34,715 nucleotides of DNA from Candidatus Nomurabacteria bacterium (GTDB lineage Bacteria; Patescibacteriota; Saccharimonadia; Saccharimonadales; Saccharimonadaceae): the NCBI GenBank assembly GCA_031266275.1, contig JAISBI010000027.1, forward strand, positions 1 through 34,715. The letters run 5' to 3'. Under the pieces are notes generated by a model. The model was not told the DNA's origin. It did no database searches and saw only the letters and a program-made list of their open reading frames with translations. Below, one piece after another: positions 1-24,833 of this stretch; the first letter of the stretch is position 1; each line of letters starts with the position of its first letter. The position numbers and the translations under genes were made by a program.

Positions 1-415
<415 letters not shown>

Positions 416-555
416 CGCTTTACGTCATCACAAAGAAAGTGAGATGGGAAAGTTATATTGTTGTTCAGTTTGTTTTTTATGATTTGTTTCATTTTTTTAT
501 ATACACCCTCTTTGTTATTTGTTGTTATACCCTTTTTGTTGTTGGTTATGGTTAC

Positions 556-584
556 ATTATATATGATAAAATTTGTTGTGTCAA
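556..584 (-). promoter_or_regulatory. Consensus promoter of paralog A
   Basis: Minus strand: TTGACA (584-579), 17-bp spacer, TATAAT (561-556). The start site should be near 549, giving a leader of about 57 nt to ATG 492 and about 175 nt to TTG 374. A C8 tract (599-592) lies just upstream of the -35. The same TTGACA context, C8 tract and downstream TGTAACCATAACCAACAACA segment recur at paralog B, so the whole promoter was duplicated. Confidence 0.85.
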
Positions 585-14801: not shown

Positions 14802-17027
14802 CTAGACGTTCGCTACACACCTTACTGCATAACCGTAGGTTCTATATGTGGTATTGGTCCAATCCACGGAAGTGGAATGGAGAATAATCCTGTTTGCACT
14901 GTCTACTGTGTTGTTAGCGGAGGAAGACCAATAGTAGCCTATGTTGTTTTGATTAGCGTAAGAGCTGTTAAAAATCCCACTATAAACAGCAAGCCAGGTG
15001 GTGCGCAAGCCAGCGTCTGAATTATTAGCTCCCGAGTTGACACTGGTGTTAAGAGTAGCAAGCTCGCTATTGTTACCTCCGGTCGGCAAGCGCCAATTAG
15101 CTGGGCAAATTGAAATTGCTGTGTCAAGATTCGAATTATTCTTGTTGGTACAAGCGTTAGTGTGCCCGCCCATTGCCGCACACCAGTTATAGAGATAACC
15201 ATATTGACCGCCCGAACCAGACGTGGTGCTAGGGTTGGTAGGCTCGGTGGTGACTGCAGACCCGCCTGTGTTTGGGTAATAGCGAGGCTCGGTGTAAGAA
15301 GCTGCTGTGCCGAGAGTGATGGTTCTGGTATCGTTATAATTAGTCGCTCCGCCGCCAGTATACGCTAAGTTAGTCAACATCCAGCATTTTCCGTCTGCCA
15401 ATTTTTGTATCCAATAAGAGTGGTTGTCGCGAAAGTCGTAGACACGGGTTCTAGTGGTTGGGCATTGGGCTATGTTGGTAAGGGTTTGCATGATGGCACC
15501 GGTTTGGAGCGGAGCGAGTACTCCAGTATAACTCCACTGTCCTGTGCGTGCATCAGATTGGGTGGTAGGGTTGTCTGTGCCTGTTATGCAACTATAGTAT
15601 CGTGTATTACCACCAACTGCGGTGGTTGTAGTTGTACCACTAGCGTTTGGATAGGAGCCACTGGCTGTTCCCCATGTGCAGACTGTATTGGCTGTAGTAC
15701 TAGTGACGGTAATGGTGGTGGTGCCTGATGGGATGTTGGTGGCGTTGTTAGCCGGTGTAGTGGTTGGTACTGCTGGTAGTGGGTGTTTGTAGGTATAGTC
15801 GTCAGCTGTGGTAGCGGTAGTTGGTAGGTCTGAGCTGGTCTTGGTGGTACCTCCCCAGGTCTTTACTACTAGGTCATAGGTGCCTGGTGTAATGGTTAGT
15901 CCGGAGCTGGTTTCACTGGGTAGGTCACAGGTGATGGTAGTGTTAGGGTTTGTGGGGTCAGTTATATTAGCATTGGTACAGGCTTCACCGGGTTTATTAC
16001 TAGTGCCACTGTCTTGTTCTCCATTACTATTTAGATCTATGAACACTTGGTAGGTAGTATCTAGGTTAGTGCCCGTGATAGTTATGGCTTTGGTTTCGGT
16101 GGTGGTGCCTATGGTGGGGGTAAGGCTAGTGATGGTGGGTGGTGCTGGTGGGGTGTAGGGGTTGGCAGTGACTGTGATAGTTACGGTATTGGTGTATGGG
16201 TTAGTGGTTGGTGTGGCGGGTAGGGTATTGTTTACTTTGGCTCCTATGGTAAGGGTTTGGGTACCATTGTTGTCTGGGTCGTCTGGGTTGGTGGGTTGGT
16301 GGGTGTTCTTAATGATGCTAGGTGCAGTACTGGCTGGTATAGCAAACCATAGTGGGTCAGTGCTAGGGTCGGGTGAGAATGAGGAAGTAGGGGCGGTAGA
16401 GGCTCCCCATTGGTTAGGACTAAGGGTGCTGGGGGTAATGATGCCAGAGGGGTCTATGGTGCCGGTGGTGGGGTTAATGATGTTTACGGCATCGGTGCAG
16501 TCATTGCCGTCGGTTAGGCGACGGAGGCAGGTGTCTGATGGGTCAGAACTAGGGCTGGTGGTGTTTAGTCTGGTGGTATAGCCAGAGGGGTTATCCGTGG
16601 TTACGACTATATTGGCAGTTACTTGGTTAAAGGTGTTGGGGATGAGAGAAAGAGTGGTGGGAGAGGCTATGGGAGAGATAGAGAGACTGGGGGAGGAGGC
16701 GGGTTTGAGGGCGTTGGTGGGTAAGGCAGAGACAATTGGTACTGGTATAGGTGGGAATAAAAGGAAGAAAGCTATGGCTAGGAGTGGTGGTAAGGAGACA
16801 AGGGGAACCAAACAGGAGTTGGTTAGGATTTTAGGTAGTTTAGAGAGGAAGTTGGTGGTAGTAGTAGTGGTGGTAGTGGTACGGAAAGGACTGTGATTAG
16901 TGTGGTGGGGATGAAAGGTAGAGGGTGGGTAGTGGGAGTTGGTTGGGATACGTGGTAGTTTAGAGAGGGGGTTAGAGTAGAGGTTAGAGTAGAGGTTAGA
17001 GCAAAGGTTGGTTATTGCGCGAGGCAA
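14802..17027 (-). CDS. Secreted FISUMP-domain surface protein, paralog B (phase-variable start)
   Basis: 741 aa counted from TTG 17027. A Thr/Ser/Asn-rich N-terminus with T9 (50-58) and SNLY repeats is followed by a signal or anchor helix at about 72-92. Then come a Pro/Thr-rich region, an IPT/TIG-like Ig module (about 296-415, PTITSLTPTIGTTTETKAITITGTNL), a second Ig-like module (417-502) and a C-terminal FISUMP domain (about 515-741). FISUMP signatures are KLADGKCWMLTNL, YGYLYNWCAAM, ICPANWRLPT, YYWSSSANN and YGYAVRCVANV. TTG has no Shine-Dalgarno; an upstream GTG/ATG (17161/17158) with AAAAGGG leads into this frame only if the (TC)11 tract changes to 10 or 13 units, giving about 784 aa. 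Strand composition is extreme (A/C-rich coding strand). Confidence 0.85.
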   Translation of the reverse strand: MPRAITNLCSNLYSNLYSNPLSKLPRIPTNSHYPPSTFHPHHTNHSPFRTTTTTTTTTNFLSKLPKILTNSCLVPLVSLPPLLAIAFFLLFPPIPVPIVSALPTNALKPASSPSLSISPIASPTTLSLIPNTFNQVTANIVVTTDNPSGYTTRLNTTSPSSDPSDTCLRRLTDGNDCTDAVNIINPTTGTIDPSGIITPSTLSPNQWGASTAPTSSFSPDPSTDPLWFAIPASTAPSIIKNTHQPTNPDDPDNNGTQTLTIGAKVNNTLPATPTTNPYTNTVTITVTANPYTPPAPPTITSLTPTIGTTTETKAITITGTNLDTTYQVFIDLNSNGEQDSGTSNKPGEACTNANITDPTNPNTTITCDLPSETSSGLTITPGTYDLVVKTWGGTTKTSSDLPTTATTADDYTYKHPLPAVPTTTPANNATNIPSGTTTITVTSTTANTVCTWGTASGSYPNASGTTTTTAVGGNTRYYSCITGTDNPTTQSDARTGQWSYTGVLAPLQTGAIMQTLTNIAQCPTTRTRVYDFRDNHSYWIQKLADGKCWMLTNLAYTGGGATNYNDTRTITLGTAASYTEPRYYPNTGGSAVTTEPTNPSTTSGSGGQYGYLYNWCAAMGGHTNACTNKNNSNLDTAISICPANWRLPTGGNNSELATLNTSVNSGANNSDAGLRTTWLAVYSGIFNSSYANQNNIGYYWSSSANNTVDSANRIILHSTSVDWTNTTYRTYGYAVRCVANV

Positions 17028-17028
17028 C

Positions 17029-17050
17029 GAGAGAGAGAGAGAGAGAGAGA
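17029..17050 (-). repeat. Dinucleotide tract (TC)11 inside the start region of paralog B
   Basis: The upstream frame reads MKTTTNNINNTINNN, TANNNKVFPTHFLL, NSLKPNP, then (SL)n through the tract. With 11 units it shifts and stops at TAA 17014-17012; with 10 or 13 it continues as SLPRAITNLCSNLY into the 741-aa ORF. Paralog A has the same arrangement with 18 units, and the peptide FP(S/T)HFL just before the tract is conserved, which supports translation of the upstream frame. Confidence 0.85.
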
Positions 17051-17251
17051 TGGGTTGGGTTTTAGACTATTGAGAAGAAAGTGAGTTGGGAAGACTTTGT
17101 TGTTGTTTGCTGTATTATTGTTTATTGTGTTGTTTATATTGTTGGTTGTTGTTTTCATCACTTTTGTACCCTTTTGTTTTTTTGTATATATATACTATTT
17201 GTATTATATTTTTCTGTTACTATACCCTTTTATGTTGTTGGTTATGGTTAC

Positions 17252-17279
17252 ATTGTAGCACGGATTTTGGGGATGTCAA
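17252..17279 (-). promoter_or_regulatory. Promoter of paralog B
   Basis: Minus strand: TTGACA (17279-17274), 16-bp spacer ending TGC (extended -10), TACAAT (17257-17252). Start site near 17245, leaving about 84 nt to GTG 17161. The 310-nt stretch 17028-17337 otherwise holds only the A-rich, nearly G-free leader and the divergent beta-lactamase-like promoter. A C8 tract (17294-17287) lies upstream of the -35 as in paralog A. Confidence 0.85.
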
Positions 17280-24194: not shown

Positions 24195-24833
24195 TTATTT
24201 CACACCAGTATTAGCAGCTTTCACGATCGAGGCAACCTCGACAACCGAACCGTCAGCTTGAACTTCATAGGTCTTACCGTTTTGAGTGACGATTTGACCA
24301 TCCATCAAACCTAGAGCGCTAGCCCAATCTTCAAGGTTCACACCATCTGGAGCAATGATATCAGCAGCGGTCAAAGTGAAGTTCGCCAAGCCACTCAAGT
24401 TGGTAATACTACTGAGGTCAGCCGTGCCAGCCACAGTTGCACTGACCGGTGCATTGGTCGGGGTCGCCTTAATAGCAGCGGCCACAGCAACTGCGTCTGC
24501 GCTAGTCAAGTCTCCGCTAACCTGTAAATTTACAATCAGACTTGGATTGTCAAAACCGTAGTTAGCCATATTATTTACAAACCCGCCAGCTACCCAAGCT
24601 GGATTGGCAGTAATAACATTGACTTCTGTCACATTACTAAAACTGTCGCCGGCGAGTGCATTGTAGATGTCTTGCGATACAACGTTCGAATTCTCGCTAC
24701 TGATATTCAACGTCAAAATAGTGCCACTGTAGTCGGCCACACCAAACGTGCCCGCGAAAATTGGTGTCGCTGCAACCGCTAACCCAAGCGTCACAGCAAA
24801 GGCCGAAACGGCCACAATATTTAGTTTTTTCAT
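24195..24833 (-). CDS. Secreted protein with C-terminal ANTGVK motif, sortase partner
   Basis: 212 aa. Signal peptide (MKKLNIVAVSAFAVTLGLA, cleavage probably after IFA-G near 28). The mature part is acidic, Ala/Thr/Asn-rich and has alternating short strands (LTLNISSENSNVV, ADLSSITNLSGLANFTL) reminiscent of small adhesin or bacterial-surface modules. It ends AANTGVK directly followed by the stop, with no membrane helix or basic tail in any downstream frame. The (P/A)NTGV end matches the sorting motif of the beta-helix protein. AAGGAG precedes ATG 24833. Expression is probably set by the poly-G promoter upstream. Confidence 0.75.
   Translation of the reverse strand: MKKLNIVAVSAFAVTLGLAVAATPIFAGTFGVADYSGTILTLNISSENSNVVSQDIYNALAGDSFSNVTEVNVITANPAWVAGGFVNNMANYGFDNPSLIVNLQVSGDLTSADAVAVAAAIKATPTNAPVSATVAGTADLSSITNLSGLANFTLTAADIIAPDGVNLEDWASALGLMDGQIVTQNGKTYEVQADGSVVEVASIVKAANTGVK

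Follow-up and report, generated by a model that had tools for sequence, protein, structure and literature searches.

Here we describe a gene for a FISUMP-domain protein (gene B) that is very probably a contingency locus, undergoing translational phase variation by slipped-strand mispairing at a (TC)11 tract. The gene is located on the minus strand of a 34,715-nt contig of Candidatus Nomurabacteria bacterium (JAISBI010000027.1, assembly GCA_031266275.1), which is referred to in full as the window and to which the coordinates of genes A and B refer. The proposed switch builds on the anatomy of the locus, its reading frames, the enrichment and placement of such tracts throughout the genome, purifying selection on the switched open reading frames (ORFs) and the absence of MutS, all of which are demonstrated below.

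Results

Anatomy and reading frames of gene B

The elements of gene B map to the minus strand in the following order:

17252..17279, minus strand: promoter, with TTGACA at 17279-17274, a spacer of 16 nt and TG-TACAAT, in which the -10 element TACAAT occupies 17257-17252
17158-17156, minus strand: start codon ATG, preceded by AAAGGGTACAAAAGTG
17051..17158, minus strand: 36 upstream codons, stop-free and a multiple of 3 in length, with the motif KVFPTHFL
17029..17050, minus strand: putative phase-variable tract (TC)11, encoding SLSLSLS
17012..17014, minus strand: TAA that closes the OFF-phase peptide of 48 aa
14802..17027, minus strand: main ORF of 741 aa, in a different frame from the ATG

The peptide ahead of the tract, MKTTTNNINNTINNNTANNNKVFPTHFLLNSLKPNP, reads into (TC)11. 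Based on the frame arithmetic gene B is OFF at 11 units and ON at 10 or 13, and the anatomy, unit number and ON lengths that a preliminary description of this DNA had assigned to the gene are exact in both coordinates and frames. The main ORF comprises a long N-terminal segment, a hydrophobic signal-like segment (around residues 70-105) located some 70 residues downstream of the tract, and the FISUMP domain (PF09603, residues 546-738, E = 2.8e-9, 37.9 bits compared to a curated cut-off of 33.9). No RNA family was found at the locus with Rfam. A predicted fold of the FISUMP domain was discarded, its mean pLDDT being 29 with a two-sequence alignment.

According to the proposed mechanism, transcription from TTGACA-TACAAT would provide an mRNA with the ATG ahead of a (TC)n tract, which contains no stop in any frame. 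Replication slippage would add or remove TC units of 2 nt each, and only at one tract length in three would the secretory FISUMP ORF be in frame with the start. Thus, 10 or 13 units would allow synthesis of the full protein, and 11 units that of the short peptide.

The same layout in gene A and other FISUMP paralogs

The window harbours a second gene of this kind, gene A, at its beginning:

556..584, minus strand: promoter, TTGACA-17-TATAAT
412..492, minus strand: start and 27 upstream codons, ATG at 492-490; MKQIIKNKLNNNITFPSHFLCDDVKRD
376..411, minus strand: (TC)18 tract, OFF; ON at 16 or 19
1..374, minus strand: downstream ORF, truncated by the contig end

With an FPSHFL motif in its leader, gene A has the layout of gene B, as the preliminary description had stated for the two paralogs, and both genes are OFF. 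Both tracts, (TC)11 and (TC)18, are located inside ATG-initiated frames, and their 2-nt unit is not divisible by 3.

Promoter and leader, GTAACCATAACCAACAACA(T)AAAAGGGTA, are common to six FISUMP paralogs. In these FP(S/T)HFL-type genes the distance from the ATG to the tract is 81, 84, 87, 90, 93 and 108 nt, a multiple of 3 in all six, with unit numbers in the same order of n = 18, 12, 15, 12, 13 and 11. Every one of them is ON at n = 1 mod 3, and the paralog on contig C4 (n = 13) is indeed ON. The ATG frame is the only one in which the six leaders lack stops (joint shuffle P ~6e-5, with the copies treated as independent). In the FISUMP paralog on C35 the ATG is lost and a GTG start is possible.

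Upstream of the tract the frame, the absence of stops, the promoter and the ribosome-binding context are kept; the upstream codons show pN ~ pS and no clear purifying selection on the amino acids. The preliminary description had named a lack of coding selection in this region as evidence against a switch. Selection on the amino acids is indeed not evident, but the frame is conserved. It is on this point that the case is weakest.

Genome-wide census and placement of the tracts

The genome comprises 792 kb in 42 contigs and contains 22 tracts of at least six TC units, compared to ~0.02 expected from a first-order model of the fetched sequence. This substantiates the earlier argument that the recurrence of the design in two paralogs is not due to chance. 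By comparison, 115 other genomes drawn from across the phylum each contain 0-2 tracts of at least seven units, and 39 of 295 genomes of the family have at least one tract. As many as 18 of the 22 tracts are preceded by an open ATG and followed by an ORF in which a hydrophobic segment is found within 130 residues, compared to 5-13% of random positions (P < 1e-12). The switched products are predicted to be surface-exposed.

The tract-bearing genes belong to at least three families and use both strand orientations, TC encoding SLSL and GA encoding RERE. In one family, made up of FISUMP genes, the coding strand carries TC. A second has GA on the coding strand and a KGGTGAT motif downstream of the membrane segment; clear ribosome-binding sites are present at the start codons of the GA-type genes. 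The mechanism had been proposed to be family-wide among FISUMP genes. The design does extend to many genes, but it is not confined to FISUMP, as unrelated families carry the tract too, often in the opposite orientation. In total, FISUMP (PF09603) has 38 matches in the genome. Further tract-bearing genes are (contig:position):

C30:5824 and C36:21773: FISUMP genes with a GA tract
C9:34714: TIG/FISUMP gene with a tract
C12:42875: SurA-like gene with a tract (weak match, under the curated cut-off)

All 22 tracts are followed by CG (CGT in 19), whatever the gene family or coding orientation. The tract gene on C6 is cut by the contig end, and those on C15 and C21 are irregular, the ORF on C21 being short. 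Contigs C3, C4, C13, C15, C19 and C26 end within FISUMP genes, and the number of tract genes is therefore probably underestimated. Viral contigs gave no matches to the patterns of leader and tract, nor did a scan of proteins, and a contig scan with (TC)8CGTTG matched mainly unrelated genomes (Helicobacter, Campylobacter and others) together with a metagenome-assembled genome labelled Nomurabacteria.

Phase, selection and length variation

We then tabulated the unit numbers modulo 3 throughout the genome, as the preliminary description had suggested. For 19 tract genes the ATG could be assigned; 7 of them are ON and 12 OFF, close to the one-third expected for a phase that drifts by slippage, although consensus tract lengths from the 42-contig assembly could be wrong by one unit. 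The downstream ORFs exhibit dN/dS values of 0.13-0.55 between paralogs. As this purifying selection includes pairs in which both copies are OFF, the OFF copies are not old pseudogenes.

Tracts whose flanks are 80-100% identical, on one side or on both, differ in n, both between paralogs and across genomes. Locus L061 (n = 18) differs from L077 (n = 20) with a flank of 90% on one side, L164 (n = 10) from L165 (n = 11) with a flank of 100% on one side, and L175 (n = 14) from L187 (n = 23), in genomes of two genera, with flanks of 97% and 95%. This comparison covers paralogs and genomes of other genera, the genus of the source organism being represented by one genome. Together, the ON-phase fraction, the frame conservation and the different n between similar flanks support the ON/OFF reading first made from the window.

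Alternatively, the out-of-frame copies could be decaying pseudogenes, or the tract lengths could be errors from the assembly of a mixed metagenome with the true genes in frame. The assembly is indeed fragmented into 42 contigs with breaks within these repeats, and odd members exist, such as C35 without a start and C21 with its short ORF. However, intact ORFs of 741, 687 and 448+ aa at dN/dS 0.13-0.55 are not expected from decay, and the frame breaks are located at the tract, in both wrong phases and in many genes. Moreover, an assembly error would neither yield 22 tracts nor position them ahead of signal segments. We consider this explanation very unlikely.

Start codons downstream of the tract

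The tract might also be a 5' untranslated spacer with translation beginning at a TTG just after it, so that the frame would be independent of tract length. Genes A and B have such a TTG directly behind the tract, as do three other FISUMP paralogs, and gene callers would pick it as the start. It is, however, preceded by CTCTCTC alone, without a ribosome-binding site, and is missing in C26 and C35, while in most GA-type genes the stretch from the tract to the membrane segment lacks any start codon. A further argument against it is the upstream ATG frame, which remains open over lengths divisible by 3 and in which promoter and leader are conserved. We regard this possibility as highly improbable, even more so than decay or misassembly.

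In 12 of 20 tract ORFs examined there is no ATG, GTG or TTG between the tract and the membrane segment, and the leader-bearing FISUMP genes contain at most a TTG there, after pure pyrimidines (CTCTCTC). Given the missing start codons in the former and the pyrimidine-preceded TTG in the latter, the full protein could hardly be made except via the tract. Least probable of all, tract length might tune protein amount or export through the charge of the n-region or the translation rate, as SLSL or RERE is encoded at a charge-sensitive place just before the membrane segment, and the tract is used in either orientation; however, each 2-nt unit shifts the frame, so that frame loss dominates, and SL and RE are opposite in properties, with no shared tuning role apparent.

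MutS and a second type of tract

MutS (PF00488) is absent in 8/8 genomes of the family (the source genome and seven others, complete ones included) and present in 11 of 14 control genomes. A lack of mismatch repair favours slippage at dinucleotide tracts, and the absence of MutS would thus favour tract slippage in the source organism.

The genome also contains 12 runs of at least nine G, several of them within the codons for the N-terminus of secreted proteins, FISUMP proteins included, in ON and OFF copies:

C7, C12, C17, C20, C21, C23, C25 and C32 (loci L189-L195, L078, L095, L097 and L098): runs of 9-14 G, located for the most part in N-terminal codons
24909-24922 of the window, minus strand: G14 run between TTGACA and TATACA, upstream of a secreted-protein gene at 24195-24833

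Examples are MKGNNSINQTPL-(G)n and MIKKPSQTKLPW-(G)n in secreted FISUMP-type genes. The poly-G runs constitute a second, homopolymer family of putative switches. The G14 run is a probable case of promoter-spacer phase variation.

Tracts in related genomes

The same tract layout was found in relatives of the source genome. The TM7-specific 16S primer 580F (PMC7651992, PMC6073563) matches seven genomes of the same family and none of three unrelated genomes; the draft of the source genome itself gave no match. Most likely the source family belongs to the Saccharibacteria, the organism being placed by its family membership.

In other Saccharibacteria (L162 in genome G167, L155-L161 in G185 and L176 in G157) a TC/AG tract is located just before type IV pilin leaders (FTIVELLVVIVVIGILAAI, PF07963). 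Several of these tract-bearing pilin genes are consecutive, and phase variation of the pilus is possible in these relatives. At L175 (G142, n = 14) and L187 (G048, n = 23) the tract opens a gene for a reverse transcriptase (PF00078, E 1.6e-20), both copies being ON; these may be mobile or DGR/retron-like enzymes with a slippage tract.

Discussion

Our analysis indicates that gene B is one of many tract-bearing genes. These resemble the simple-sequence-repeat contingency loci of translational phase variation in their perfect short tandem tract within the coding frame, in the restoration of the frame by another unit number, in unit numbers that differ between related copies with conserved flanks, and in products that are predicted to be exposed. 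The same switch would be present in no fewer than 18 genes whose products are secreted or located in the membrane, and a poly-G version of it in several more, so that each cell would express a subset of surface proteins and the population would be a mixture of cells with different subsets. We infer the slippage rate, the actual expression and the benefit, which may consist in a change of adhesins or in escape from recognition by hosts, phages or predators. At the level of the genome we think it likely that about 30 independent slippage switches (22 TC/GA and ~10 poly-G) form a combinatorial surface switchboard within less than 0.8 Mb and without MutS. Nearly all of these switches would be translational, and one would act through a promoter spacer. 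Such a switchboard would be the first to be reported in the candidate phyla radiation (CPR), with one dinucleotide tract that unrelated families have recruited, in either orientation, in front of their secretion signals.

Related switches have been described in other bacteria. babB and hopZ of Helicobacter pylori are CT-repeat phase-variable outer membrane adhesins. The CT-repeat phase-variable adhesin gene sabA of the same species (PMC8310295) resembles the genes described here: it encodes a surface adhesin, contains a (CT)n dinucleotide tract close to its 5' end and is ON or OFF depending on unit number. In contrast to the H. pylori adhesins, the present genes are found in another phylum and encode unrelated proteins (FISUMP, the KGGTG family and, in relatives, pilins). 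Their tracts occur in either strand orientation, encode SL or RE dipeptides before a long n-region and are spread over some 18-22 genes in a genome of 0.8 Mb, here described from sequence alone.

The type III methyltransferase gene of Mycoplasma mycoides subsp. capri contains an AG repeat in its coding region, and (AG)12 leads to premature termination (PMC3498834). A dinucleotide tract in the coding region and early termination are thus shared with the genes studied here, but the mycoplasma tract switches a restriction-modification enzyme instead of surface proteins. In a Gracilibacterium, a hypervariable surface gene with PTD repeats has been reported, for which slipped-strand mispairing was discussed (PMC6851277). 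This is likewise a repeat-driven variable surface protein in a candidate-phyla bacterium; the repeat, however, is 9 nt long and in frame and alters the sequence of one gene, while the tracts described here would switch the frame. A literature search found no report of phase variation in Saccharibacteria, Patescibacteria or the CPR. The mechanism as such is already known. What appears to be new is the lineage, how many loci are involved, and that one tract is used in both orientations before secretion segments.

Saccharibacteria spend their lives attached to other bacteria, and the way in which they deal with changing hosts, with phages or with animal immunity is poorly understood. If dense random switching of surface proteins holds true, a population would always contain many coat variants. 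This would have a bearing on host range, on adhesion and on the difficulty of assembling these loci.
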